Origin: Maribacter hydrothermalis
Lineage (GTDB): Bacteria > Bacteroidota > Bacteroidia > Flavobacteriales > Flavobacteriaceae
Direction: 5' to 3'
Assembly: GCF_001913155.1 (NCBI RefSeq)
Contig: NZ_CP018760.1
Span: 310,001-374,000 of the forward strand
Length of the DNA: 64,000 bases
In this document: one piece after another, positions 48,773-64,000 of the stretch
How positions within the stretch are numbered: position 1 is the first letter of the stretch
How the letters are laid out: every line of letters starts with the position of its first letter
Notes under the pieces: generated by a model
What the model saw: only the letters and a program-made list of their open reading frames with translations
Databases searched by the model: none
What the model was told of the DNA's origin: nothing
Translations under genes and position numbers: made by a program

Positions 48773-51700
48773 TTAAAGAGATTTATTAGAAAATTCTAAC
48801 CAATCAACAATACCCACAAGGGCTCCTTCATCTTTATCTTTCGTCTTAAATACAAGATAAAGATCTTGCCTTCCTGTTACAGATTTGCTAAAATTTGTTT
48901 TAAGCTCTTTTAAACCAAATTCAGTTAAGCCAACCTCTACATTTATGGTTCCTAAAAGCGCTCCATCTTGACTGCCTATACGAAATTCAACATCTCCGCC
49001 TTTTACTATGCCAGGTGCAATCGCAAAATTGCCTGTAACTGCTTTTACCCCAGTTAAATCCATATCCTTAAACATAAAATAACCGTCTTTCATTCCAATA
49101 GCGATACCTAGCGGTTCATCTAGGTCAGGTATGGTACCTGCCGGCACATTCATTCTTTGAGCGGTGCCATCGTCAAAAGTTTCACCTTCAACTTTAGGAT
49201 ATCTAAGTAAAAATGTCTTTTGGGCATTTAGACCTTCTATTTCACCACCACCCATATCGGTATAACTAGCCGTTAACACATAAGTGCCTTTTGTTTTACT
49301 TCCAATATGTTGGTTACTTGTATAACTACCCGCAGGTGGATATTTAGACTTTACCGGTGCTGCCGACTGTGAAAGGCTAAGAATATATTCTGCCATTTGT
49401 TTTGCTTCGGTTACACTTAAATCTGGGTGTGCCGCCATGGGTATTTCACCCCAATTACCACTTCCTCCATTTATAATTTTGTTAGCCAACATACTCGATG
49501 CTTGTTGGGTTGTAGCATATTTATCGGCAATATCAATATAAGAAGGCCCTATGGATTTATCCTTTTCTTTGTGACAAGAAATACAGTCTGAACTGCCCAT
49601 TAATGTTTTACCAACCGAAGCGTAAGCAGCATCTGCCATATTTGCGTGGTCTTTAGCAGCGAGTACCTTATCACTACCCTCTGCTAAATAATCAAAAGAA
49701 ACAATAATGCGCGATGCATCTAAGGTCCCATCAGATAATTTACCATCCTCAGCGTCGTTTACATCTACATTATATTTAATATCTATTGGGGCATCTGGCC
49801 AATAGAAACTGCCATTTCCACCAGTAATCTCCCAAGTAAGCTCCGGCAATTCGTTACCAACCATAATTTCGGTTTCACTATTTGCAACATTACCTTCAGA
49901 ATCCGTTACTTCTAAGTTTACCTTGAATTTACCAGATGTGTTGAATGTATATACTGGATTAATTTCTGAAGACTCTTCACTTCCATCACCAAATGTCCAT
50001 TTGTATGTAAGCGCATCTCCATCATAATCAATTGAATTTCTTCCGGCAAAATTTACGGTCAACGGATCTGCGCCTATAGTTTTATCTGCTGCAATCTCTG
50101 CTTTTGGAGCTCTATTGCCATTTATATATTCTATTCTTGAGAGCGTAGCGTTCGCATTTTGTGAGAACCAGCCTGTACCGTATTCCAATATATAAAGTGC
50201 GCCATCAGGACCAAAAATCATGTCGATAGTATTGTTGAACTTCATATTGGGTAGGATCTGTGTCATTTTTTCAAATGAACCATCTTCCTTCATTGTCACA
50301 GCAAAAATCCAACCACGCATCCAATCATAAGCCAACAATTTACCATCAAAAAAATCGGGCCAATTTAGTCCACTATCCGCATAATCTTCGCTATAATAAA
50401 TTGGACCGGCCATTGCATTTCTTGAACCAGTTCCCAAAGCGGGGAATTTATCTGAAGTAGCATAGGGATAATAAATCATTGCAGGTTGTGATGGTGGCAA
50501 CTCCCGTAAGCCTGTATTGTTTGGCGATTCATTAATAGGTTGTAATGAATCATATAATGCACCTGTAGTGTCGGTTTTAAAATCACGCTTATTGTATGCC
50601 TGATTATCGGCAATTAAGTACGGCCATCCAAAATTACCTGCCTTCTGTGCTTGATTTATTTCATCATACCCTTTAGGTCCTAAATTTAAAGAATCATTAT
50701 TTCCATCAGGCCCAACTTCACCCCAATACAAGAAACCGGTTCTTGAATCTACTGAAATACGATACGGATTTCTGTTTCCCATAACATAAATCTCCGGTCT
50801 TGTTTTAGGCGTTCCTTTTGGAAAAAGATTTCCTTCAGGTATACTATATGTTCCATCTACTTCCGGCTTAATACGTAATATTTTACCTCTTAAATCATTT
50901 GTGTTACCTGCCGATTTTTGGGCATCCCAGCCATATCTTCCCTCCCTATTGTCTAAAGGTGAATACCCGTCTACTCTAGGGCTAGTATTATCTCCTGTAG
51001 ATAGATAGAGATAACCATCTGGCCCAAACTCAATGGAACCTGCAGAATGACAGCATTCTTCTCGTTGAGTTACTACATTTAATAGAATTTTTTCTGATGT
51101 AAGGTCAAAGGAACCATTCTTTAATTCAAAACGGGATAAATTTTGATTGTTTTCTCCCTTATTTTCAGAATAGTATAGGTAAATCCAGTTATTCTCTTTG
51201 TAATTTGGATCTACTGCCAAACCTAACAGACCATCTTCCAATCCTGAGAAAACTTCTAAGGTTGTTATCAATGAATCTTTGCTTTTTTCAAGATCATAAA
51301 TATGAATACCTCCCTTTCTTTCAATATATATGATTTTATCATCACTTAGAAAATCAAGCTCCATTGGCTCATTCAAATTCTGTGTAAACATCGTTTTCAT
51401 AAATCGATTTTCTTCGGGAACCAATTCGGCATATGCCCTACTATAATCTACCGGCTGCCCAAGACCTATAGCATACTTAATACCGCCTAATAAATGACTT
51501 AAAAATTTAGAATCTAAAAATTGTTCATCGGTATGACCCATACCTGTATAAAATGACCTACCACCGTCATATTCTTTATACCATGCTATTGGGTGATTAG
51601 CGCCATTTGTACCACCGTTATAAGTAGATTCATCTACCGTAATTAAAACTTGGTTGGTAGGGTCTATGGCTTTAAAATTATACCATTCATCTGCTACCGT

Positions 51701-52231
51701 CCATGTACTTGGCAACGAATCTGTTGCGGCATGATTTGGCTGAACAACCTTCACAGCCCCTTCTTGAACATTAGGGTTCATAGGGTGACTATCGAAATAG
51801 GCACCTGCTAATTTTCCGTACCATGGCCAACCATATTCTGTATCCGTTGCGGCATGTATTCCTACATAACCCCCACCAGCTTGAATAAAACGCTCCATTT
51901 GGCTTTGTTGTACGGGATCTAAAACATTACCTGTAGTATTTAAGAATACCACTGCCATAAAATCTTTTAAATTATTTTCATTAAAATCTTCCGCGTTTTC
52001 GGTAGCGACAACGGTAAAACCATTAGTTTCTCCTAATTTTTTAATGGCTTCAATTCCTGGTTCAATAGATTCATGTCTATAACCTTCAGTTTTTGAAAAT
52101 ACAAGTACTTTTTGTTCAGCAGGTTTTAGCATAAAATATGCGGCTACTGCAATAATTGCAATTAGAATTCCTAATACGGCAAGGACCCGTAAAATTCTTC
52201 TTTTGGTTCTTCCTTTTTTTGGTGTGGTCAT
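48773..52231 (-). CDS. ThuA / PQQ-type sugar dehydrogenase / PKD / cytochrome c / CBM6 fusion
   Basis: About 1152 residues. I start at ATG 52231; the longer GTG start at 52261 lies inside an operator palindrome. Order by rough residue number: membrane anchor 15-35, ThuA 40-260, soluble glucose/sorbosone dehydrogenase-like propeller 285-690 (AVDPNYKENNWIYLYYSE and EIYVMGNRNPYRISVDSRTG), PKD 707-790, cytochrome c with CISCH near 882, CBM6-like sheet 1013-1152. It should oxidise a sugar in the periplasm and pass electrons to the cytochrome. First gene of a three-gene operon. Confidence 0.93.
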   Translation of the reverse strand: MTTPKKGRTKRRILRVLAVLGILIAIIAVAAYFMLKPAEQKVLVFSKTEGYRHESIEPGIEAIKKLGETNGFTVVATENAEDFNENNLKDFMAVVFLNTTGNVLDPVQQSQMERFIQAGGGYVGIHAATDTEYGWPWYGKLAGAYFDSHPMNPNVQEGAVKVVQPNHAATDSLPSTWTVADEWYNFKAIDPTNQVLITVDESTYNGGTNGANHPIAWYKEYDGGRSFYTGMGHTDEQFLDSKFLSHLLGGIKYAIGLGQPVDYSRAYAELVPEENRFMKTMFTQNLNEPMELDFLSDDKIIYIERKGGIHIYDLEKSKDSLITTLEVFSGLEDGLLGLAVDPNYKENNWIYLYYSENKGENNQNLSRFELKNGSFDLTSEKILLNVVTQREECCHSAGSIEFGPDGYLYLSTGDNTSPRVDGYSPLDNREGRYGWDAQKSAGNTNDLRGKILRIKPEVDGTYSIPEGNLFPKGTPKTRPEIYVMGNRNPYRISVDSRTGFLYWGEVGPDGNNDSLNLGPKGYDEINQAQKAGNFGWPYLIADNQAYNKRDFKTDTTGALYDSLQPINESPNNTGLRELPPSQPAMIYYPYATSDKFPALGTGSRNAMAGPIYYSEDYADSGLNWPDFFDGKLLAYDWMRGWIFAVTMKEDGSFEKMTQILPNMKFNNTIDMIFGPDGALYILEYGTGWFSQNANATLSRIEYINGNRAPKAEIAADKTIGADPLTVNFAGRNSIDYDGDALTYKWTFGDGSEESSEINPVYTFNTSGKFKVNLEVTDSEGNVANSETEIMVGNELPELTWEITGGNGSFYWPDAPIDIKYNVDVNDAEDGKLSDGTLDASRIIVSFDYLAEGSDKVLAAKDHANMADAAYASVGKTLMGSSDCISCHKEKDKSIGPSYIDIADKYATTQQASSMLANKIINGGSGNWGEIPMAAHPDLSVTEAKQMAEYILSLSQSAAPVKSKYPPAGSYTSNQHIGSKTKGTYVLTASYTDMGGGEIEGLNAQKTFLLRYPKVEGETFDDGTAQRMNVPAGTIPDLDEPLGIAIGMKDGYFMFKDMDLTGVKAVTGNFAIAPGIVKGGDVEFRIGSQDGALLGTINVEVGLTEFGLKELKTNFSKSVTGRQDLYLVFKTKDKDEGALVGIVDWLEFSNKSL

Positions 52232-52247
52232 TGTTGATGTATATAAA

Positions 52248-52270
52248 TGAGTGAATTTCACTCAAATATA
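52248..52270 (-). promoter_or_regulatory. operator palindrome on the -7 box of the sugar-oxidation operon
   Basis: TGAGTGAATTTCACTCA (52248-52264) is a perfect 8+1+8 palindrome. On the minus strand TATATTTG (52270-52263) is an exact -7 box whose last bases overlap it. A repressor bound here would block the start. The divergent NUDIX regulator is the likely ligand-responsive binder. Confidence 0.65.
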
Positions 52271-52340
52271 GAAAAATAGTTTAATAATTATAATTTTTAA
52301 GTTTATATTCGTTTATAATTCAAACCATTACCGTTATTTA

Positions 52341-53111
52341 ATGTCCCAATTTTCAGAAGAAACCATAACACTTATTCGCCAAGAGCTTAAAAAGTGCATT
52401 CCACAATTATCTATAAACTGTGTTATTTTTAGATTTAACGGCGAGCATTTACAAGTACCCATTGTACAACCTGTACAAGCAGATATTTGGAATATTCCAG
52501 GAGGTTACATTTATCAAAATGAAGGAATTAATGAAGCGGCAAAACGCATACTTTTTGAACAAACAGAAATAAACAATTTACTACTTAGTCAGTTCGGAAC
52601 TTTTGGTTCGGCTCAACGAGAATTTTCTGAAGAAATAAAGGGATATTCAAGTTTAGGCTTTCCTGAAGATATTATTAAACATGTATCTCAACGTTTTGTA
52701 ACCATAGGATATTATAGCATTGTTGGTCAAAAACAGAAAGATTTAAAAACCGGTCCGTTTTTTAAAGAGGTAAAATGGGTAAATGTGAATGAAACAAAAT
52801 CGTTGGCCTTAGATCACTCGCATTTGGTTTCTGAAGCTTTACTAATGCTTAGAGCAGAACTACAAAGCAAGCCATTACTTGCTAGCTTTATGCCAGAATC
52901 ATTCACAATTCCTGAATTGCAAAAACTCTATGAAGCTATTCTTGGAAGACCAGTGGATCGCGGAAATTTTAGACAGCGAATTTTAAAAACGAAAATATTA
53001 ATTAAGGTAGGAACAGCCACAAAAACAGGTAGCAGACCTCCAATTGTTTATAAGTTAGATACTAAGAAATACCTTGATTCATTGACCCAGGATATGAAAT
53101 TAGGATTCTAA
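52341..53111 (+). CDS. NUDIX-family transcriptional regulator (NrtR/AraR-like), inactive NUDIX
   Basis: 256 residues. The NUDIX box keeps the G-x5-E spacing and the Arg (GYIYQNE, then AAKR), but the REUxEExGU positions read RILFEQTEI, so catalytic Glu residues are replaced. The C-terminal winged helix (FTIPELQKLYEAILGR, then RGNFRQRILK) binds DNA. This is the design of the sugar-responsive NrtR/AraR regulators of Bacteroidota. It is divergent from the sugar-oxidation operon and likely controls it. Confidence 0.88.
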   Translation: MSQFSEETITLIRQELKKCIPQLSINCVIFRFNGEHLQVPIVQPVQADIWNIPGGYIYQNEGINEAAKRILFEQTEINNLLLSQFGTFGSAQREFSEEIKGYSSLGFPEDIIKHVSQRFVTIGYYSIVGQKQKDLKTGPFFKEVKWVNVNETKSLALDHSHLVSEALLMLRAELQSKPLLASFMPESFTIPELQKLYEAILGRPVDRGNFRQRILKTKILIKVGTATKTGSRPPIVYKLDTKKYLDSLTQDMKLGF

Positions 53112-53161
53112 AATTCATGATATATTAAATATTCAATTAGCTACATTTTTCTATATTAAAA

Positions 53162-53911
53162 TTACCGATGCATCTTATCCAAAATCTCTATAATCTCGGT
53201 TTTCTTACGCACTGAAACTGGTACATTTTCTCCGTTTTTTAACATTAAATAACCACCATCGGTTTTGATATAGGCACTAATGCATTGCAGGTTAACCAAA
53301 TGACTTTGGTGTACTCGCACAAAATCGTGACTACTTAATAAATCGGCAAAGTACTTTAGGGTCTTTGTTACGAATATCTTGCGTTTGTCTTGAAGATGAA
53401 AAATGGTGTTATTACTGTCAGATTCGCACCGAATGATATCATCTAAACTGACAATGATAATTTGGTCTAGCGTATGTAACGATATCTTATTCGGCTTTTT
53501 CTCCGGAGCCTCAATGGTTTCCTTTAATATCTGCAATCGCTCTTTATTAGGCTGCAACTGCTCTTTTGCACGAGCAATTGCTAAACTTAAATGGTCATTT
53601 GAATATGGCTTTAAAACATAGTCGATTGCTGCGAACTTGAAGGCTCTTATCGCGAACTCATCACTCGCTGTTACGAATATGATTTTCGATTTTAAATCGG
53701 GGAAAATTTCCAGAATATCAAAGCCTGTACCATCACCAAGCATGATATCCAAGAATAGAATATCGGGCTGATTTTTACGTAGCACTTTTGCGGCTTCCAC
53801 TACACTCTGTGCCGTTGCGATGATTTCAATATCTGGGTGTTGCGTCTCAATATCCCGCTTTAAAAGGGTTAAGGCGTCAATCATATCTTCTACTATTATC
53901 GCTGTATGCAT
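53162..53911 (-). CDS. LytTR-family response regulator
   Basis: 249 residues. The receiver domain (residues 1-120) has the phospho-acceptor Asp55 in ILFLDIML. The LytTR domain (about 150-248) shows IISLHTLDQIIIVSLDDIIR-type strands and FVRVHQSHLVNL. It binds direct repeats near promoters. It is 6 nt downstream of its sensor kinase and last in the operon. Two promoters next to it carry matching direct repeats. Confidence 0.95.
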   Translation of the reverse strand: MHTAIIVEDMIDALTLLKRDIETQHPDIEIIATAQSVVEAAKVLRKNQPDILFLDIMLGDGTGFDILEIFPDLKSKIIFVTASDEFAIRAFKFAAIDYVLKPYSNDHLSLAIARAKEQLQPNKERLQILKETIEAPEKKPNKISLHTLDQIIIVSLDDIIRCESDSNNTIFHLQDKRKIFVTKTLKYFADLLSSHDFVRVHQSHLVNLQCISAYIKTDGGYLMLKNGENVPVSVRKKTEIIEILDKMHR

Positions 53912-53917
53912 AGGTCT

Positions 53918-56900
53918 TTAATAATCTGTTAGTAATGGTATTTTAAAGCTAATTTTGGTACCGCCAATACTACCGTCTTCATTTTTAATCTCGCTGATTT
54001 TCAAGGTATTGTTACCGGCAATAGATTCCAACCGCTCTTTCGTTACCGTCAACGCCATAGATTGATGGTCTGTTTTTGGTTTTTCGTTCTGCGATTTAAA
54101 AATACCCATTCCGTTGTCAATAATACTGCACTGTAAATGGCTTTTTGTGGTGGTAAAGGCTATTTCTAATTCTCCTGCTCTTTCTCCTTTTAATATTCCG
54201 TGTCTAATGGCATTTTCTACAAAAGGCTGAATCAACATTGGCGGAATCAATATCTCTTCGGCATCGGGATTGGTATCTACACTGAAAGAACATTCAAATG
54301 GTTTTTGAGCCATTAATTGTTCTACTTCCACATAATGTCGTAATGCCTTTATTTCTTGATCTAAACTTATGTGTTCTTTTCTAGAATTCTGTAAGGTTTC
54401 GCGAAGCAAAATGGCAAAACTATTAATTGTAGTATCCATCTTTTCGGGCTTGTTGCCTGCCATGGCTTTCACCCCATTTAATACATTAAATATAAAATGC
54501 GGATTCATCTGTAATTGCAATGCCTTTTGCTCTAAAGTAAGCAGATAGTTCTGAGTTTTTAAATGCTCTTGAGCGGCTCTGTTTTTTGCTTTTATCCTAC
54601 GGATATAAAACAAACCTATTCCCAACAATACCAATATTGTCAATGTCAAAACCGACCACTGAAACCAGTCCTTTTTGTATAGGGGACTATCGATAAAAAA
54701 ACTGAATGTAATTGGCTCGCTTTCTTGCCATCTGTAATTTCTAGATTGCGCCGAAAAGGTATGGGCTCCGTAAGCGAGTCCCGCGAAATTTTGTTTGTTC
54801 TCCTTTACCCACGGGCTCCATTCGATATCATCTAATTTTGTTCTGTATTCCACCTCATTTGGGTGGTCTACATCTACCGTTCTAAACGAGAAACCTAATT
54901 GTGTTTGTTCGGGAGTTAATTGCAATATTTTGTTACTATTCGTCCAATCTTTTAAAACTAAAGAATCTATATTTTTATAACGTTCTTCAACGCCCGTAAA
55001 ATATACGGTTGGCGGTGCTGCCGTTTTTTTGCTTTCACTAGGAATATGTTTAGTAAGTCCATAAATTGCACCAAACCAGATATTACCATTAGCATCTTTG
55101 TCAACAGCATTTAAGCAGGTTTCAATGCCTAAAAATCCGTCATTTCTACCAAAATGGTACACATCTACAATTTCGTTTTCTGGGTTCAATTCTATTTTAT
55201 CGACTCCCCTTTCTGAACCTGCCCACAAATAGCCTTGTTCATCGAAAATGAGCTGATAGATATTATTTGAAGATAAATTCTTGCTTCCTTTTAATTGTTG
55301 AAAATTAACGGGATTGGTACTTTTAGCATACCAAATACCTTTACCCGAAGTACCTAAATAAATCGTTTCGTCATGAAACAAAATAGTACCGATTGCGGTT
55401 TGCTGTTCTAGACCGGTTTCAATACTCGTCACCTTATTATTTTCAATATAGCCTAAATGACCATTTTGTGTGGAATACCAGAGTTTACCATCAGGACCTT
55501 TAACCATGCCTTTTATTAGCATGTCAGTAATTCCATTTCGCTTCGAAAAAGTTTTTCTAACCACAAGGCTATCATTGTCTGAATAGTAATTGAATTTTAC
55601 GATACCGTGGGCATAGGTCGCTGCCCATATAAAATCATCATCGGCAATTACCGTACGCACCCAATCTGACGGAAAACCTTTGCTTTCATCAATAATATGA
55701 TTGGTGGTTCTTTCTACAGAAACCGTGTCAATATTTATTAAAAAGGTTTCACTCGACGAGAACACCAAACTGTCGACCATTTTAGTCTCTCGAAATAGCA
55801 ATCCCCTATTATCTGAACCTGCCCAAAGATTCCCTTTTGAATCGCTAGTTATGGTTTTGATTTTTACATCGAAAAAAGTGCTTTCATTAGGTAGTGGATG
55901 AATGCCTAGCGAATCAACCTTTGTTAGTCCGGCTTCCGAAGTAGACAACCATAACCCGTCAGCAGCATTATGTACCGCATATATACGATTGCCTTTTAAG
56001 CCAGTACTTTGGTCGTAGTGCTTAAAATTGTTCTGAAAGTACTTGTAGAGTCCGCCACCAGAACTTGCAATCCACAAGTTTCCATTATCATCTTCCATGA
56101 TTTTTCTGATATGCGGAGTAGCTAAGCCGTTAGCCGTATTAAGTCGTTTTAGCTCTGAGAATTTAGTGGTTTCTACCACCGTAATACCATCATTATCAGT
56201 GGCTATCCAAAGCTCATCCGTATTATGAATGGACATGGAATTTATACGCGATGGTTCGGGCATCAGAAACTGGTCAGCAGTATTCTCTTTAACCATTATA
56301 AATACACCGTCATCAAAAGTTGCCGCCAATATTTTGTTGTTATGTTGTATGACGGACTTAAAGTTATTCGCCTCAACCTTAATTTTTTCAGTGGCGGATT
56401 CGCTCAATGCATTAAGTTTCCACAAACCGTTATTTGTAGCCAACCAGTAGTAATTTCCATCAAAAAGTATTGAATTAATTTCGCTGGAATCTATTTCAGC
56501 ATTTATAGAAATCTTGCATAGTTTCTTATTTTTTGAGTAGCTGTAAAGTCCTTTTTTAGTACCTACATACAACACATTTTCAGCGGTGTTAAATTGTAGT
56601 ATTTGTGGGGAATTATAATTTACAAAGTTGTTCTTTACTTTTATGGAAAGTCCTTTTTTGGTACCTACAAAAAGGGAATCGTTTGCGGTATGTAAAGCAT
56701 CAATGTAATTGGAAAGTAATCCGTCACTTTCATTCCAAACTTCGAAGTTTTCTCCGTCAAAATTTGCTAATCCTCCACCTTGCGTTCCTAACCACAAATA
56801 ACCCATTGCATCTTGCAGCACATCATATACTTGAGATTGCGGTAAACCATCTGCAATGGTATATGCCCGTAGCTGACTGTTTTGCGCAGCTAAGTGCATT

Positions 56901-56950
56901 GTTCCTAATAAACAAAATACCAATACGAAGTATTTACTAAGCAGATTCAA
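53918..56950 (-). CDS. LytS-type sensor histidine kinase with beta-propeller sensor
   Basis: 1010 residues. Signal peptide, then two periplasmic Reg_prop beta-propellers (YTIADGLPQSQVYDVLQDAM, GYLWLGTQGGGLANFD), a Y_Y_Y domain (about 680-750), one membrane span (about 760-785), a coiled coil and an HisKA_3/PF06580-type kinase with QMNPHFIFNVLNG (His near 816) and the ATP lid IDNGMGI. The propeller region should sense something in the periplasm. It works with the LytTR regulator that follows. Confidence 0.95.
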   Translation of the reverse strand: MNLLSKYFVLVFCLLGTMHLAAQNSQLRAYTIADGLPQSQVYDVLQDAMGYLWLGTQGGGLANFDGENFEVWNESDGLLSNYIDALHTANDSLFVGTKKGLSIKVKNNFVNYNSPQILQFNTAENVLYVGTKKGLYSYSKNKKLCKISINAEIDSSEINSILFDGNYYWLATNNGLWKLNALSESATEKIKVEANNFKSVIQHNNKILAATFDDGVFIMVKENTADQFLMPEPSRINSMSIHNTDELWIATDNDGITVVETTKFSELKRLNTANGLATPHIRKIMEDDNGNLWIASSGGGLYKYFQNNFKHYDQSTGLKGNRIYAVHNAADGLWLSTSEAGLTKVDSLGIHPLPNESTFFDVKIKTITSDSKGNLWAGSDNRGLLFRETKMVDSLVFSSSETFLINIDTVSVERTTNHIIDESKGFPSDWVRTVIADDDFIWAATYAHGIVKFNYYSDNDSLVVRKTFSKRNGITDMLIKGMVKGPDGKLWYSTQNGHLGYIENNKVTSIETGLEQQTAIGTILFHDETIYLGTSGKGIWYAKSTNPVNFQQLKGSKNLSSNNIYQLIFDEQGYLWAGSERGVDKIELNPENEIVDVYHFGRNDGFLGIETCLNAVDKDANGNIWFGAIYGLTKHIPSESKKTAAPPTVYFTGVEERYKNIDSLVLKDWTNSNKILQLTPEQTQLGFSFRTVDVDHPNEVEYRTKLDDIEWSPWVKENKQNFAGLAYGAHTFSAQSRNYRWQESEPITFSFFIDSPLYKKDWFQWSVLTLTILVLLGIGLFYIRRIKAKNRAAQEHLKTQNYLLTLEQKALQLQMNPHFIFNVLNGVKAMAGNKPEKMDTTINSFAILLRETLQNSRKEHISLDQEIKALRHYVEVEQLMAQKPFECSFSVDTNPDAEEILIPPMLIQPFVENAIRHGILKGERAGELEIAFTTTKSHLQCSIIDNGMGIFKSQNEKPKTDHQSMALTVTKERLESIAGNNTLKISEIKNEDGSIGGTKISFKIPLLTDY

Positions 56951-56991
56951 ATATGTGTTCTATTTTAAGTAATTATCTAACGTTATTATGT

Positions 56992-58023
56992 CTATAATAT
57001 TTGATATAATAAAGGGTCTTGTATGTTTGTGCTTTGGTACTCGTTGGCATCATTAGACTTCAAAATAGGTGCTAATATGCAGAGTACGGTTGTTTTTCCT
57101 TTTATTATTAGTTTGTTTTCTTTGATAGTGCTTCTCCATCTAAAACTTTCTATAGGAATGTTCAATTTAAACAGTACCTCAGCCATTTCTGGGGATTCTG
57201 AAATCCAATCCATAATTGCTTCTTTGTCTTCTAAAGTAGGTATATCATCCTCCGAATCAAAAGTAAATTCCCAATCTACCGGAATATTGAATTTGAAACT
57301 ATAGGCTTTACCAAACGAAGATTCCTGTCTCGTTTTTAGTGCTGTAAACCAATCGATATTAACCGTCGGATACGCTTGCTTGAACTCTTTGGATAAATGC
57401 GCCGGACCTAAAGATTCCGCCGTTGGATAATATCCATAATAGGGTTTTGCCAAATAATGGTCTGCATATTTACCACCGAATACATTGAAATAGGGCGATG
57501 CTACAACTTCATCTGCTTTGAAGGTATTTTTCAATTCTTGAAGTAAAGGTTGATTTTCTCCCAATCCGCAGGAATGAAAAATGATTTTAGAATCGCTTGT
57601 AACACCATCACAGATGGTTTCCATTTTATTCTCACTTATTGCATCTTGCAAACTCCTTTCTGTAATGCGTTCTCCAGTTCTTGTTGTCTTTAACGACATG
57701 CCCAACCAGGCGTTACTATGACTTACAATATGAATTTCGTTATACCTTATTTGGTTCTCCCCTGCACTATTTAGATATTTTACTATCTCATCAATAGCAA
57801 AAAGACTGTCTACAACTGACATTCTTTGCTTTTCAAAGTACTGCTTGGCATTGCCATAATAGGTGTTATCACCTTCATCAAAACCAGCAATAAAAACGAT
57901 GGATTCTTGTACCACTTCTTTTTTAGAAGGTGGAGCAAGTGCCGCTCCCGACTGTTGCGAAAACGGCTTCTTACTACCTAACATTAGCACATAAACCAAT
58001 ACTATAATTAAACACTTATTCAT
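56992..58023 (-). CDS. secreted caspase-like (clan CD/DUF4347-like) protein
   Basis: 343 residues with signal peptide. A His/Cys pair sits in the right order for a caspase-type fold: IHIVSHSNAWLG (His102) and, after a strand, KIIFHSCGLG (His150, Cys152). The layout (strand-His-loop-LG, helix, strand-Cys-G) resembles DUF4347 and clostripain-like folds, though HSN stands where HG is usual. It may be a protease or an inactive relative. It lies inside the two-component operon (gaps of 9 and 41 nt). Confidence 0.6.
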   Translation of the reverse strand: MNKCLIIVLVYVLMLGSKKPFSQQSGAALAPPSKKEVVQESIVFIAGFDEGDNTYYGNAKQYFEKQRMSVVDSLFAIDEIVKYLNSAGENQIRYNEIHIVSHSNAWLGMSLKTTRTGERITERSLQDAISENKMETICDGVTSDSKIIFHSCGLGENQPLLQELKNTFKADEVVASPYFNVFGGKYADHYLAKPYYGYYPTAESLGPAHLSKEFKQAYPTVNIDWFTALKTRQESSFGKAYSFKFNIPVDWEFTFDSEDDIPTLEDKEAIMDWISESPEMAEVLFKLNIPIESFRWRSTIKENKLIIKGKTTVLCILAPILKSNDANEYQSTNIQDPLLYQIL

Positions 58024-58032
58024 AGCTATTTT

Positions 58033-58926
58033 TTAAAAGTCTATACTAACTACAGCACTATCTTTGATTTGATTAGTTTCTTCTTTTTTAATCAACTTAG
58101 ATCCGTTCCAGATATACTTTGTTGTAATGAACTCCACATTGTTCTGAGCCATAGCATCATCTAGCGTTTTGATGTTTTTTGTAATCGTTGTTTTTAACAA
58201 AATAGTACTCTTAACACCTTGCATATCCGACGGAAAAACAAAAGACTCGGTCTTTAAATAATTGGTATCTGCGTAGTCAATTAAGTCCGCCACTTTTTTG
58301 AATCTACCATTGTTCCAGAACAAGTAGCTCTTACCTACTTGGTAACCAGTATCTACATCGGCTAAATCTACCGTAATTACATCTTCAACATTAAACAAAC
58401 CTAAACTACCGTGGTTTTGAATGTGAACCGGAATGGCTGCCAAACTATCCAATACCATTTTATCTAATTGTTGACCGTTTTTAAAGGCACGTAATTGATA
58501 TTTAGTTTCGGTAACTCCCGCTTCATTTTTAGCGCTGCTTTGATAACCGTACACAAACTTTACTTGGTTGTCCGCAATACTGCCGAAGGATTTCTGAGCT
58601 ATCATTCCGCCCCACACCCATCCGGTTTCATTGCCTGTGGTTACGCGGTACCAGTGACTTTTGATTCCGTCTATTTCTATAGCATAAAGACTTTTTTCCC
58701 ATAAGACCATTTTAGTACCGATATTAAGTAACGTTACTTTTTTACTGCGCACCGATGGCTTTTCGCGAAGAAATACTTTGTGAGCCAATAGATACTCATA
58801 CGTTAATTCTTCAGCGGGAATTTTTTTGTCCATCACTTCAAATTCTACTTGATCTACGCTTTGGGCGAAGATGTTTACAAATGCAAATAAGCATAGGAAT
58901 AAGGCACTTTTCTTTAAATTTTTCAT
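58033..58926 (-). CDS. secreted SH3b-domain protein
   Basis: 297 residues. A signal peptide is followed by a bacterial SH3 domain (about residues 50-115: VFLREKPSVRSKKVTLLNIG, then GNETGWVWGGMIA), then a strand-rich C-terminus of unknown type. SH3b domains bind peptidoglycan or peptides. It follows the operon's first gene by 24 nt and precedes the caspase-like gene. Confidence 0.8.
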   Translation of the reverse strand: MKNLKKSALFLCLFAFVNIFAQSVDQVEFEVMDKKIPAEELTYEYLLAHKVFLREKPSVRSKKVTLLNIGTKMVLWEKSLYAIEIDGIKSHWYRVTTGNETGWVWGGMIAQKSFGSIADNQVKFVYGYQSSAKNEAGVTETKYQLRAFKNGQQLDKMVLDSLAAIPVHIQNHGSLGLFNVEDVITVDLADVDTGYQVGKSYLFWNNGRFKKVADLIDYADTNYLKTESFVFPSDMQGVKSTILLKTTITKNIKTLDDAMAQNNVEFITTKYIWNGSKLIKKEETNQIKDSAVVSIDF

Positions 58927-58950
58927 GTTTCTAAATTTTAAGGGTTATTA

Positions 58951-59511
58951 CTAATTAATTGCTGTTATAGCGTCTTCAGTATCAAAATCATCGTCGTTCC
59001 AGGCAATGCTTCTAAGTACTTTAATTTCTTTAATTGTAGCTGTTTCCGTGTATTGTAATGCGGCTCTTAATATGGTTCCTTCCTTGCCAAATAACTGATT
59101 AGGAAAAATGTAGTGTATATCCGTAATAGGTTCGTAGGCATACTCGTTTTTAATACCTGGCAAGGAAATGAAATCATTATCGTTACTTACCAAATAATAG
59201 TACTCTTCTGTGCTTGAACAGCAAGCATTATATTCGACCGTTACTTTTAAAATTTCATTGATATCCTCTAAATCCGGATTGCTTAAAACCGAGATGCGTA
59301 TTTCATCTAACAAACCGAAATCCGAGATAGATAATGTTGCTACATGACTTTCTGGGTTGTTCGTAACAATGACATCTACCAACCAGATATCTTCCTCTTG
59401 TTGACCACTACTTCTTTGGTTGGTGACATCGTATTTATCGGTTAATTGAAACTCTTGTGCATTCGTGATATACATGCTAAATATGAAGGCTAAAAGGATG
59501 AATTTTCTCAT
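58951..59511 (-). CDS. secreted protein of unknown function, first gene of the two-component operon
   Basis: 186 residues. A signal peptide ends at ITNAQ; the mature protein is beta-rich with an acidic tail (DDDFDTEDAI) and has a Cys-Cys pair (NACCSSTEEY). No family recognised. It starts the five-gene operon that ends in the kinase and regulator, directly under the direct-repeat promoter. Confidence 0.75.
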   Translation of the reverse strand: MRKFILLAFIFSMYITNAQEFQLTDKYDVTNQRSSGQQEEDIWLVDVIVTNNPESHVATLSISDFGLLDEIRISVLSNPDLEDINEILKVTVEYNACCSSTEEYYYLVSNDNDFISLPGIKNEYAYEPITDIHYIFPNQLFGKEGTILRAALQYTETATIKEIKVLRSIAWNDDDFDTEDAITAIN

Positions 59512-59545
59512 GATATAATTTTTTAGTTGTTTTGTTTCTATACTA

Positions 59546-59616
59546 CTAAATTACAGCAGAGACAGGGCTTTTATGAGGCTGTTTTAGTATTCGTAGCCGT
59601 TCATCTAGTTTTCGTT
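59546..59616 (-). promoter_or_regulatory. LytTR-type direct repeat and -7 box of the two-component operon
   Basis: On the minus strand AACGAAAACTA (59616-59606) and TACGAATACTA (59595-59585) repeat with a 21-bp period. After 31 bp comes TAATTTAG (59553-59546), one base off TAnnTTTG. Repeats two helical turns apart are what LytTR regulators bind. Confidence 0.7.
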
Positions 59617-59712
59617 GAACAGTGTGTATTTATTAAGTTTACACCTGGTTTTTACTAGGTTTTTTATAAAGAAAAAGAGCCCCGTAAAAAAGTATGGATT
59701 AGATAATATAGA

Positions 59713-59759
59713 AAGGCACGAAGTAATCTACCAACTAGTTAGAGATTGCTTCGTGCCTT
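59713..59759. repeat. long palindromic dispersed repeat copy
   Basis: AAGGCACGAAGTAATCT and AGATTGCTTCGTGCCTT form a 17-bp stem with one G-U pair. The flank TTGCAATGG beyond 59759 completes the recognisable 'CATTGCnAGGCACGAAGCAATCT' element that I recall as a common bacterial intergenic repeat. It lies after the VIT-vWA gene. It encodes nothing convincing. Confidence 0.65.
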
Positions 59760-59803
59760 GCAATGGCGTTTTAAAAAAACTGCTTACTGAAAACTAATAC
59801 TAC

Positions 59804-61951
59804 CTACTTTTTTATCGTTAAAGTCATCTCTTTTTTAACGGATTTTAAAGTAATTTTCTCAAATTCCAATAACATGCTTTCATCAACAGACCAGCGACCA
59901 TTTTCTAGTTTTTCTATGCCAATCACTTTACCATCTGCATTGAATTGTATACGTAGGCTTTCATACTTTTTTAAATAATTTGTTACCAATTTACTATACA
60001 TCACTTTGAACTCCATCGTTAATTGTCTTTTTACATTCTTCTCTATTTCATTATTAAAATCTAGGTTGAAAGAGCGCTTGAATTTGCTAGTCTCTTTGAC
60101 GGCTGCTTCTGCTCCTACGGCTGAATTATTTACATAATTTGGCATTGGTAACGGCTGTTTTACTTTTGTCAGGGTTCCATCTTTATTCACTATGGCTTCA
60201 TCTACCGCTACGAAAGATGTGTAATTGGTCAACAAATTGTATTTCAATCCTAATGCTACGACCTCATCTTTTACGTCTTCATTGAACAAATTGTTATAAT
60301 CATCTAACTCCGCTATTTTCTTTCTTGCCCACAAATAACCCAATGCTTTGTTTTGCTTGCTTAATTGCCCGTCAGACACATTGTACACTTGTCTAAATCG
60401 CTTCTTGCCTTGGTAACCAGTTACGATAATTTCACCCTCTGCCATGCCTCTATATTTTCCATGAATAACCACCGGTCTAGCGGCAAATACATCAGGTATA
60501 CTTTTTTGGGCAAGGTCATACATATCAAATCCTTTCGATTCTATTTTTACTCTGGTCAACAAGGGTGTAGCAATGTATTTTGCAAATTCTTCCGCTACTT
60601 CTGCAGCTTCTTCCGATGTCGTTGCAATGAAAGATTCACTGTTGGAAACCTTCGCCATACCTTCTATTAAATATCTATTGACGCTAGACCCTATTCCGAA
60701 GGTGAATACATTTGCTCGATCTAAGTTATTGCCTATCAATTCAAAGGCTTCTTTTTCTACACTAACATATCCGTCGGTAATTACTACCATAGACCTTGCA
60801 ACGTTCATTTCTTTTCTTGGTAGTTTATAAGCTTCACGCAATGCACTTAGCAACTGCGTACCGCCACCGCCTTGACCTTCGGATAAAAAACGAATGGCTG
60901 CTTCAATATTCTGCTCGGTCGATTCTACTGGTGTCGCACTAAACATAGTTGAACTAGAAGCGAATAACTGAACATTGAAGGTGTCGCTCATTCGTAAATT
61001 GCAAAGTAAGTTTCGCATTAATTGTCTTGAAACTTCCAATGGATAACCGTTCATTGATCCCGAAACATCTACAATAAACAGATATTCTCGTGCCGGAATA
61101 TCATGTAATTCCACATTTTTATTTGGTTCCATTTGATAAGTAAAGAAGTTTTCATCTTCTCCCTCGTACAGTAATAATCCCGTTTGAATTTGATTTCCCC
61201 TTAGATTATAATTCAATATGAAATCTCTGTTCGAGGGATTCTTATTTTCTTCGGATAAAAAGACTTCGGCTGTTTTTGAATTAGGATGATTCACCGTTAC
61301 TTTATGACTGCTGCTATTAATATTCTGAATAATCATGCCCGCATTTAGGGTTACCGACATATCAAAATCAAAACTATCGGCTATGCCCTTCGCCGAATAT
61401 GGCATATTGAAACTCTCTTCATTTTTAGTACTCTCACCCGTAAACCTAGGACCTACAACTCCTGGTGCTACAAATTGATATTCCCCATTTACAGGCACTA
61501 ATATTTCTGTGTAATAGATATCTATGGCAATTTCATCGCCAGGCATAATATTACCTACGTTCATTTTAAAAACATTGGGTCTATCTTGGTCTAACTTCGC
61601 TGCTCGTTTACCTTCTTCCAAAGCAGCATCATACACTTTTTGAGCTTCTTGTTTTTCAAATATTTTGGCATTCACAATTCTATTGCCAATAGTCATCTGC
61701 ATTTTATGAACCGCTGCTTGTGTAGAAAGCGGAAATACATATTTCGCTTCTACAGCCCCGGTTCCTTTATTCTGATATACTTGCGTAATTTGAACATGAG
61801 CAACCGTACCAGCTATATTTACAGTTGTTTCTGATGACTTTAAAGGAATGATAGCATCTTCTGTGGATACCAACAAATACGGACTTTCATTATCTTGTGA
61901 GAAACCTGTAAAGCAGGTTATGCATAGTAAAAAGATGTACAGTAGTTTCAT
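59804..61951 (-). CDS. secreted VIT-vWA domain protein
   Basis: 715 residues with signal peptide (cleavage near TGFSQ). VIT domain (about 25-155, ETTVNIAGTVAHVQITQVYQ, then GKRAAKLDQDRPNVFKMNVG), then a vWA domain (288-460) with an intact MIDAS DVSGSM (295-300), and a C-terminal domain. This is the inter-alpha-trypsin-inhibitor heavy chain layout. No sortase or membrane anchor was seen. It has the same promoter repeat as the adjacent two-component operon. Confidence 0.92.
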   Translation of the reverse strand: MKLLYIFLLCITCFTGFSQDNESPYLLVSTEDAIIPLKSSETTVNIAGTVAHVQITQVYQNKGTGAVEAKYVFPLSTQAAVHKMQMTIGNRIVNAKIFEKQEAQKVYDAALEEGKRAAKLDQDRPNVFKMNVGNIMPGDEIAIDIYYTEILVPVNGEYQFVAPGVVGPRFTGESTKNEESFNMPYSAKGIADSFDFDMSVTLNAGMIIQNINSSSHKVTVNHPNSKTAEVFLSEENKNPSNRDFILNYNLRGNQIQTGLLLYEGEDENFFTYQMEPNKNVELHDIPAREYLFIVDVSGSMNGYPLEVSRQLMRNLLCNLRMSDTFNVQLFASSSTMFSATPVESTEQNIEAAIRFLSEGQGGGGTQLLSALREAYKLPRKEMNVARSMVVITDGYVSVEKEAFELIGNNLDRANVFTFGIGSSVNRYLIEGMAKVSNSESFIATTSEEAAEVAEEFAKYIATPLLTRVKIESKGFDMYDLAQKSIPDVFAARPVVIHGKYRGMAEGEIIVTGYQGKKRFRQVYNVSDGQLSKQNKALGYLWARKKIAELDDYNNLFNEDVKDEVVALGLKYNLLTNYTSFVAVDEAIVNKDGTLTKVKQPLPMPNYVNNSAVGAEAAVKETSKFKRSFNLDFNNEIEKNVKRQLTMEFKVMYSKLVTNYLKKYESLRIQFNADGKVIGIEKLENGRWSVDESMLLEFEKITLKSVKKEMTLTIKK

Positions 61952-61983
61952 GATCTTAGTTTTAGATTATTATTATTTGAAGT

Positions 61984-62054
61984 CAAATCTAATTGTGAAC
62001 TACGGGAGAAACCGGTGCCTTTTAGTATTCGTTGGGGTTAAACTAGAATTCGTT
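61984..62054 (-). promoter_or_regulatory. LytTR-type direct repeat and exact -7 box of the VIT-vWA gene
   Basis: On the minus strand AACGAATTCTA (62054-62044) and AACGAATACTA (62033-62023) have a 21-bp period. After 31 bp comes TAGATTTG (61991-61984), an exact TAnnTTTG. Spacing equals that of the promoter at 59.5 kb. Confidence 0.75.
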
Positions 62055-62129
62055 GAAAATTGCTACCATCCTTAAATGTTTAAGCTTTCAACAGATTTAT
62101 ATACGGTTGCAATACTAATTACCATTGTA

Positions 62130-62186
62130 TCTTAACAAAGTTGGGTTCAACCATTAATATAAAGGCTGAACCCAACTTTGTTGAGA
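62130..62186 (-). terminator. 20-bp hairpin behind the fucosidase gene
   Basis: AACAAAGTTGGGTTCA (62134-62149) pairs perfectly with TGAACCCAACTTTGTT (62167-62182), extended by TCTT/GAGA with one G-U. It starts 11 nt past the fucosidase stop. The minus strand has no T-run after it, so it may act as an mRNA 3' stabiliser or a poor terminator. Confidence 0.6.
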
Positions 62187-62197
62187 TTTTAAAAAAA

Positions 62198-64000
62198 CTA
62201 ATTCTTATAAAAATCTAGTTCCGCTATGGCAGAAGAGGTATTCGAACCTGTAATTTCATCACTTTCTAATTTTAAATATCTAGTAGAAAAAGCGGTTTTA
62301 AACTTATGTGTTCTAGGTGTTGGGTCATTAATTAAATTGCCAAACTCAAAACTTTCTATTTCCTTCCAACTTTTACCGTCAAGACTACTATAAATAGTTC
62401 CTTTTTCAAACATTCCAGAATTAAAATCCGTTGGTGGTGTATATTTAAAAGCACTAATTTCAGTTTCTTCTCCTATATCTAGAGAAACAAAATGATTGCC
62501 GTAACTATTCTCATCAGCTTGCCAAAACGTTCCTGTATTTTCATCCATTAGCATGTCAACAGTATGTTCTTTTAGTTCACTATCTACATTAAGAATTTTC
62601 CAGTTTTCTTTAAGAATACCAAAAGTATAATCTGATACACTCCCCAATTCTTCATTTAAAATGGCTACCGCCTTTATGTTACCATCTGCAAACTGAAATG
62701 GTTCTATATATTCTGCAGAATTTATATCGGGGACTTCACCTGTTGTTGTATAGACTATCTTTAATCCCTTATTTAGATTTTCACCTGGATTTTCGCCATT
62801 TGGATTCCATTTAAAATCGGCCATTTTTGGAGCGATGTTTACCATGCCTTCCTTGGACCTCTTTATTTCTAAAACAGGGGGTCTTGTCTTATAATAGTGG
62901 GCAGAAACATGTTGAATAACCGGTGTAGCTCTAAAATCTAGTATACGTAACCGTAATTTATTCGTTGTTACTTCGGGAAATCTAAGAATTCTTTTGTACC
63001 CAATATTTGTGCTTGTCAAAATCTCTGTCCATTGGTTATTTACCCATGCATCCAATGCATGACGGGACACACGTTCACCATGTCTTTTCACATCTTCTTG
63101 GATAACGAACCTATTGATCTTGATGTCCTTTGGAAGTTCAAATTCAAGCGTTAATTTATCATCATTTAAAACTAAAAAGGTATCCTCATCTTCATCTAAA
63201 ACGTTATTATATCCTTTGGCATTTTCTAATAAATTAGTACCATAGGTCTCTTCTATTCTTTGGCCCGTTTCTTTTAAAACTTGTACATCTTGTTCTGAGA
63301 ATTTTCCTTCTCTATTTGGGGGTATATTCAATAAGAAAATTGAATTACCGCCAACGGACCTTTCGTAGATATCAAAAACATCATCGGTATTTCTAACTTT
63401 TTGTTCGTTTTCATTTCTATAAAACCAACCCTCTCTAATAGATGTGTTTGTCTCTGCTGGCTGGTAATGTAGATATTTACCCTCCATAAGCCTATCTATA
63501 CTTCCAACATCTTCTGCGGTTATATCTGCAAATAAGTTCATTGTCCTTGGATCTTCATTATAGGGCACAACGTTCCACTCCGTATCTCTTGTTCCCCCAG
63601 CTTCATTGCCACACCAACGCGTACCTTCCTTTCCAAAAACTACCGCATTTGGAGCAAGCTCATTAATTAACTTCTTCCAATCTCTATAGTTATATTGTTG
63701 CCCTCCTTTTCTTTTTGGATGCGCACCATCAAACCAAACCTCATCTATTGGACCATATTCAGTTAACAGTTCAAATAATTGATTCAAAAAATATTCATTG
63801 TAGTCATCGACTTCAAATTCAAAAGTATTTTTATTTTCAAACGGTCTATCTTCAACTGGTCTTGGAATAGTTCGTAACGTATACTCGCTTAAATTTCCGT
63901 ATAAACCTTCCTTATTTTCTATTTGATACAAATCTGCAGGTGACAAATAAACACCTAGTTTTATTCCGTACTTTTTACATGATTGAGACAGTTCTCTTAA
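62198..64000 (-). CDS. GH29 alpha-L-fucosidase, N-terminus outside window
   Basis: At least 600 residues; the frame is open to the right edge, so the signal and the start of the (beta/alpha)8 barrel are missing. DEVWFDGAHP carries the GH29 nucleophile Asp, NIPPNREGKFSEQDV follows the barrel, and two discoidin-like (F5/8-type) strands regions end the protein (SRHALDAWVNNQWTEIL and RYLKLESDEITGSN). It removes fucose from algal or host glycans, probably in the periplasm or outside. It is probably part of a polysaccharide locus that continues to the right. Confidence 0.93.
   Translation of the reverse strand, partial: LRELSQSCKKYGIKLGVYLSPADLYQIENKEGLYGNLSEYTLRTIPRPVEDRPFENKNTFEFEVDDYNEYFLNQLFELLTEYGPIDEVWFDGAHPKRKGGQQYNYRDWKKLINELAPNAVVFGKEGTRWCGNEAGGTRDTEWNVVPYNEDPRTMNLFADITAEDVGSIDRLMEGKYLHYQPAETNTSIREGWFYRNENEQKVRNTDDVFDIYERSVGGNSIFLLNIPPNREGKFSEQDVQVLKETGQRIEETYGTNLLENAKGYNNVLDEDEDTFLVLNDDKLTLEFELPKDIKINRFVIQEDVKRHGERVSRHALDAWVNNQWTEILTSTNIGYKRILRFPEVTTNKLRLRILDFRATPVIQHVSAHYYKTRPPVLEIKRSKEGMVNIAPKMADFKWNPNGENPGENLNKGLKIVYTTTGEVPDINSAEYIEPFQFADGNIKAVAILNEELGSVSDYTFGILKENWKILNVDSELKEHTVDMLMDENTGTFWQADENSYGNHFVSLDIGEETEISAFKYTPPTDFNSGMFEKGTIYSSLDGKSWKEIESFEFGNLINDPTPRTHKFKTAFSTRYLKLESDEITGSNTSSAIAELDFYKN

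Follow-up and report, generated by a model that had tools for sequence, protein, structure and literature searches.

The LytTR response regulator encoded at 53162..53911 (reverse strand) of the window, a stretch of 64,000 nucleotides from Maribacter hydrothermalis, very probably binds as a dimer to matching direct-repeat pairs at two promoters and activates both its own operon and the gene for a VIT-vWA protein. The preliminary description had predicted direct control by this regulator, its own operon included, and this still appears to be the best explanation, given the co-occurrence of site and regulator, the presence of the site at promoters unlinked to the regulator gene, and the known architecture of LytTR promoters.

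Pattern scans placed one repeat pair, ACGAAAACTA-N11-ACGAATACTA (59585..59615, reverse strand), at the operon promoter and the other, ACGAATTCTA-N11-ACGAATACTA (62023..62053, reverse strand), at the VIT-vWA promoter. Their common pattern, ACGAAnnCTA-N11-ACGAAnnCTA, consists of two 10-bp direct repeats separated by 11 bp, that is, with a 21-bp period. The preliminary description had given the repeats as AACGAAnnCTA-type at both promoters; type and period were borne out at both, but the longer form does not fit the operon, where the proximal repeat starts TACGAA and the distal repeat is ACGAAAACTA. A −7-like box follows each pair on the same strand, TAATTTAG (59546..59553) at the operon and TAGATTTG (61984..61991) at the VIT-vWA gene, and at both promoters 31 nt separate the box from the final A of the proximal repeat. 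The flavobacterial −7 box has the consensus TAnnTTTG at −12 to −5 (PMC9723704, accessible text). TAGATTTG matches this consensus, and TAATTTAG is one base off, ending in TTAG, not TTTG; the 31-bp spacing given in the preliminary description was confirmed. The placement of both boxes at −12 to −5 is an assumption taken from the same report. Across 13 Maribacter loci (L156–L168), no TA..TTT[GA] box occurs within 60 nt past the operon site; such a box is present at most sites of other genera.

The operon (59511..53162, reverse strand) comprises five genes with intergenic gaps of 24, 9, 41, and 6 bp, and we infer that it is read as a single transcript. Its first gene (58951..59511) encodes a 186-aa protein without a Pfam or NCBIfam family match, and is followed by genes for a 297-aa SH3-domain protein (58033..58926; Pfam SH3_3, 2.7e-06), a 343-aa protein weakly similar to DUF4347 (56992..58023; 0.004, under the cut-off), a sensor histidine kinase in which the domain search found a Reg_prop beta-propeller (53918..56950; TTG start as listed), and the LytTR regulator, the predicted binder of both sites (Response_reg, 8.4e-16; LytTR, 2.1e-18; 66.8 bits for PF04397 against a cut-off of 22.6). 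In the family of the 343-aa protein, DUF4347 matches were obtained for 10 of 14 members (E up to 5; best, 6.2e-4), and a search of solved structures returned only two matches, at E 0.37; a structural model of the 343-aa protein has a mean pLDDT of 82.9. The cysteine two residues past the invariant His-150 of this family is absent from the three most distant members, as if some of them were inactive enzymes. The predicted target upstream, on the same strand, is a 715-aa VIT-vWA protein (59804..61951; Pfam VIT, 9.7e-33, plus VWA families), which also matches TIGR03788, the marine proteobacterial sortase target family, at 1.4e-113 but under the family cut-off. The proteobacterial TIGR03788 system also has its own two-component pair; a literature search on that system found nothing. 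Past the end of the VIT-vWA gene lies an inverted repeat (59708..59764, reverse strand) with 22-nt arms that are 86% complementary; it was unlisted by the terminator scan and is a possible end of the VIT-vWA transcript.

Relatives were collected as the best 80 of 274 loci from a scan of genome contigs with an alignment of the regulator, and these include loci of Maribacter, Algibacter, Psychroserpens, Bizionia, Tenacibaculum, Aquimarina, and others. In 76 of these best 80, a pair at ≤1 mismatch was found upstream; loci L173 and L177 have the site just beyond the stretch first scanned, and L170 and L174 start at contig ends. Over the same best 80 of 274 loci, pairs at 0, 1, and 2 mismatches numbered 97, 6, and 2, versus 0, 0, and 5 for the reversed pattern. 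The geometry was then read from a pool of the window, these 80 loci, and 26 further regions (L054–L063 and L125–L140), which together gave 141 sites, 127 of them distinct and 90 non-redundant at <80% mutual identity. In 80 of the 90, the offset to a box of the form TA..TT[TA][GA] is 31. The other 10 comprise sites with offset 32 (L172 and L127) or 30 (L126 and L128), five with a degenerate box at 31 (L217, L228, L132 at 9146, and both sites of L135), and a site of L140 at 4753 that lies within a reading frame and is likely a chance match, retained among the 90. The 31-nt spacing is thus not wholly rigid, being 30 or 32 at some sites. Column counts over the pooled sites revealed no conserved TTG at the −33 position.

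These features suggest how the two units could be controlled. The kinase and the regulator would form a two-component system, and the regulator, once activated, would dimerize on two 10-bp direct repeats that lie 21 bp, or two helical turns, apart. Counting from a box placed at −12 to −5, the pair would span about −74 to −44 with its center near −59, and the proximal repeat would occupy about −53 to −44. The bound regulator would then recruit RNA polymerase to a promoter that carries the −7 box and lacks a conserved −33 TTG, thereby switching on the VIT-vWA gene and the regulator's own five-gene operon, the latter in a positive feedback loop. Because AgrA, YpdB, and the LRS-like systems of Bacteroides have like geometry, we read the site, by analogy, as the LytTR dimer site of an activator; DNA binding, dimerization, the signal, and activation in preference to repression are all inferred. 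Negative autoregulation is common in general, and the regulator might instead bind both sites and repress. We regard repression as unlikely, because the pair would lie wholly upstream of the box, not over it, and the distance to the box is nearly fixed. The closest parallels also point to activation: according to the accessible text of the reports, AgrA sites lie near −60, upstream of the activated promoters P2 and P3 (PMC4227749), and the LRS repeats just 5′ of the promoter serve positive feedback (PMC6193735).

Regulator and site also co-occur across genomes. In a sample of 249 Flavobacteriaceae genomes, in which the ten best candidates per genome were scored, an orthologue of the regulator (E ≤ 1e-70) was present in 21, the window's own genome included. 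The 20 other orthologues are 63–97% identical to it, with D55 and the LytTR residues H201, Q202, and S203 invariant. A pair with at most two mismatches precedes the regulator operon in 21 of 21 genomes: 15 of them have it without mismatch, four (G093, G195, G224, and G235) with one, and two (G076 and G097) with two. We refined the motif by adding a three-base tail, RAA, and permitting one R in the proximal repeat. At ≤1 mismatch, this tailed motif matched 35 sites in 22 of the 249 genomes, versus 11 matches in 11 genomes for the reversed control; 19 of the 22 have the orthologue (Fisher p = 2.3e-23, kinship of genomes ignored). Exact matches were confined to 16 genomes, 16 of 16 with the orthologue (Fisher p = 3.2e-21, kinship again ignored). 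Two genomes with the orthologue, G113 and G224, were missed by the tailed pattern, and their sites were recovered by reading the regions. Three genomes without it (G154, G085, and G121) each carry a single one-mismatch site, and these sites can be background in view of the reversed-control matches. These 249 genomes and the 80 named loci overlap (for example, L171 and G036) and are therefore not independent sets.

Site, operon, and regulator are linked, so most of this co-occurrence is not independent either; promoters unlinked to the regulator are a cleaner test, though few in number. VIT-vWA orthologues (E ≤ 1e-40) were found in 11 of the 249 genomes, all among the 21 with the regulator, and the pair precedes the gene in 11 of 11 (10 exact; one mismatch in G235). 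In G050 and G179, the VIT-vWA gene and its site lie on a different contig from the regulator, and the retention of the site there is the cleanest evidence that it follows the regulator and not the neighborhood. Sites, geometry, conservation, and co-occurrence are thus all evident from the sequences themselves.

The co-occurrence also bears on which protein uses the sites. The genome of the window encodes 15 LytTR proteins, and another of these, or a code shared among LytTR proteins, could in principle be responsible; a one-mismatch site in G085 stands before another propeller kinase. From the co-occurrence, we judge such a binder very unlikely, somewhat more so than repression: 228 of the 249 genomes have no orthologue of the regulator and an exact match in none, even though the 20 orthologue-less genomes listed still had, at first look, 1 to 59 candidate relatives each. 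The regions of the 14 other LytTR proteins were also searched for repeats with a period of 20–23 (at least 8 of 10 positions alike) combined with TAnnTTTG, and matches were retained where they lay close to the start of a gene and not within a long frame. Only weak matches (8–9 of 10 alike, with offsets of 23–30) were found, in 3 of the 14 regions (L312, L315, and L323), and we do not generalize the geometry to these proteins. The G085 pair (L142:3340) lies 33 nt before its box, in a genome lacking the regulator orthologue, and perhaps belongs to a related system that uses a similar code.

Returning to control by the 53162 regulator, the rarity of the sites supports the earlier judgment that matching sequence, period, and distance are unlikely to arise by chance. 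Three matches at ≤3 mismatches occur in the window, two of which are the promoter sites, with 0 mismatches; 100 shuffles of the window gave a mean of 0.47 matches, and three were reached in 2 of the 100. Lone half-sites are frequent (31 matches at ≤1 mismatch, with 19.0 expected). In the whole genome (G000; 4,271,158 bp), the pair pattern matched twice exactly, once with one mismatch, six times with two, and 59 times with three; the loose matches are background, because the reversed-pattern control gave 165 at ≤3 mismatches. The only exact matches are the two promoter sites, whereas 0.00125 exact pairs genome-wide, and 1.4e-5 with TAnnTT at +31, are expected under a first-order Markov model fitted to the window. 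The pair is thus not common at unrelated places, and the refutation that the preliminary description had named on this count did not materialize. The one-mismatch match (G000:C1:527338; L144) lies within a 666-codon reading frame and was dismissed as chance. With motif and box set aside, the two promoters are alike at 32 of 83 positions, which makes a recent promoter copy unlikely. That the likeness is accidental, or the functionless trace of a copied promoter, hardly merits consideration: the two genes do adjoin, but exact sites far exceed expectation, the flanks of the pair differ as just noted, and across genera the motif is conserved while its flanks vary. No Rfam family reached the gathering score in 50000..64000; a phage near search with 59300..62300 and a viral_contigs scan with the exact refined motif each gave no match.

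The predicted regulon is small. Forty-one of the 80 loci led to 39 whole genomes (two of the loci come from the same genome), which were scanned with the tailed motif; 38 of the 39 have at least one site and none has more than three. The total is 68 sites, compared with 7 in the reversed-pattern control, and a few of the one-mismatch sites are accordingly expected to be background. A further candidate target encodes a membrane protein of 45–48 aa with one hydrophobic stretch, as judged by eye. In five Aquimarina genomes and in G177, an exact pair starts 128–135 bp before this gene (L266:2387, L267:2546, L268:2610, L269:2618, L271:8463, and L126:7742), and at the five Aquimarina sites, which are outside the 90-site pool, the box lies at 32. 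The gene was found in 19 copies in 12 of 17 genomes searched and is absent from the window's own genome; it is conserved, yet short enough to escape the usual length limits. An alternative in which the Aquimarina target is a non-coding RNA was dropped, since the stretch contains the conserved 45–48-aa frame. Only 6 of the 19 copies have the site; in the other 13, one in L287 among them, no pair with fewer than four mismatches occurs in the 350 nt upstream. Nearby copies without the site suggest that it was captured after duplication. Single extra candidates with the box at or beside +31 precede a 966-aa protein, a 746-aa protein (one mismatch), and two genes judged by eye to be lipoprotein-like. 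In L277, one VIT-vWA gene is preceded by two exact pairs (L277:15667 and L277:15371) that lie some 300 bp from each other, and the upstream pair precedes a 64-aa frame.

When six candidates per genome were scored in 395 genomes of the class, the regulator was detected at E ≤ 1e-80 in only four, two of them outside the family. In L328 and L329, which are from another family, the regulator is 56–58% identical, and the VIT-vWA protein, the DUF4347-like 343-aa protein, the propeller kinase, and the LytTR regulator are encoded by a single row of genes, which may be the older order. No pair was found in L328 at ≤3 mismatches, and the pair in L329 carries two mismatches and lacks a box at +31; within the genomes sampled, the site defined here is thus a Flavobacteriaceae feature. 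A tentative history, to which we give somewhat less than even credence, is that a dedicated Bacteroidota envelope module of VIT-vWA, DUF4347-like, propeller-kinase, and LytTR proteins, once a single gene row like that of L328 and L329, was split in the flavobacteria into two units that stayed joined by a duplicated site with near-fixed 31-bp spacing, and that other genes acquired the site afterward, among them, in Aquimarina, one of two tandem copies of the gene for the 45–48-aa membrane protein.

LytTR control through direct repeats, with autoregulation, is already known, but this regulon, with two sites in Maribacter, appears to be new: among the papers listed by the literature searches, judged mostly by titles and abstract openings, none defined a LytTR binding site in Flavobacteriaceae or described the regulon. 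The motif, the target genes, and the spacing are precise enough that one purified protein and a pair of reporters would suffice for a test. So small a regulon also opens a way to study envelope proteins that have received little attention, VIT-vWA and DUF4347-like, and that are co-inherited with their sensor.

Comparison with characterized systems was made from the accessible text of the reports cited. In the yhjX promoter of Escherichia coli, the YpdB site is a direct repeat of 10 bp whose two copies are separated by 11 bp, by our count on the printed oligonucleotide (PMC4847170). Like the Maribacter system, YpdB combines a LytS-type kinase with a LytTR regulator, a 21-bp period, and a very small regulon, and its motif is conserved across species and absent where the system is absent (PMC4847170, PMC5552118). 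It differs in its repeat sequence and in having GAF-domain sensors in place of a beta-propeller. According to the same two reports, BtsR and YpdB each control just one gene, and the accessible text names no site at the regulator's own operon. The LRS-like operons of Bacteroides thetaiotaomicron have 11-bp repeats with an 11-bp spacer, followed by 11 bp, TGTA, and 19 bp to TATCTTTG; the distance from repeats to box is therefore 34 bp, compared with 31 in Maribacter (PMC6193735). Both have direct repeats just 5′ of the promoter, autoregulating in the LRS-like operons and predicted to be so in Maribacter, but LRS pairs a membrane inhibitor with a kinase-less regulator (PMC6193735), the repeats are of another sequence, and the Maribacter sites show no conserved −33-like element; since a histidine kinase and receiver domains are present, we do not class the Maribacter system as LRS.

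AgrA of Staphylococcus aureus binds two direct repeats, centered at about −60, as a LytTR dimer (PMC4227749), and its conserved FFRCHNS corresponds to FVRVHQS in the Maribacter regulator in an alignment by eye. AgrA belongs to the Agr quorum-sensing system and acts at a different core promoter. The general LytTR repeat consensus has a GTT core, from which the Maribacter repeat appears to depart; AACGAATTCTA fits only the first four positions by eye. Other characteristic elements of a LytTR promoter are present in the Maribacter system, namely a regulator with a LytTR domain, two direct repeats of 9–11 bp that are 11–13 bp apart, and a set position of the repeats directly 5′ of the core promoter.
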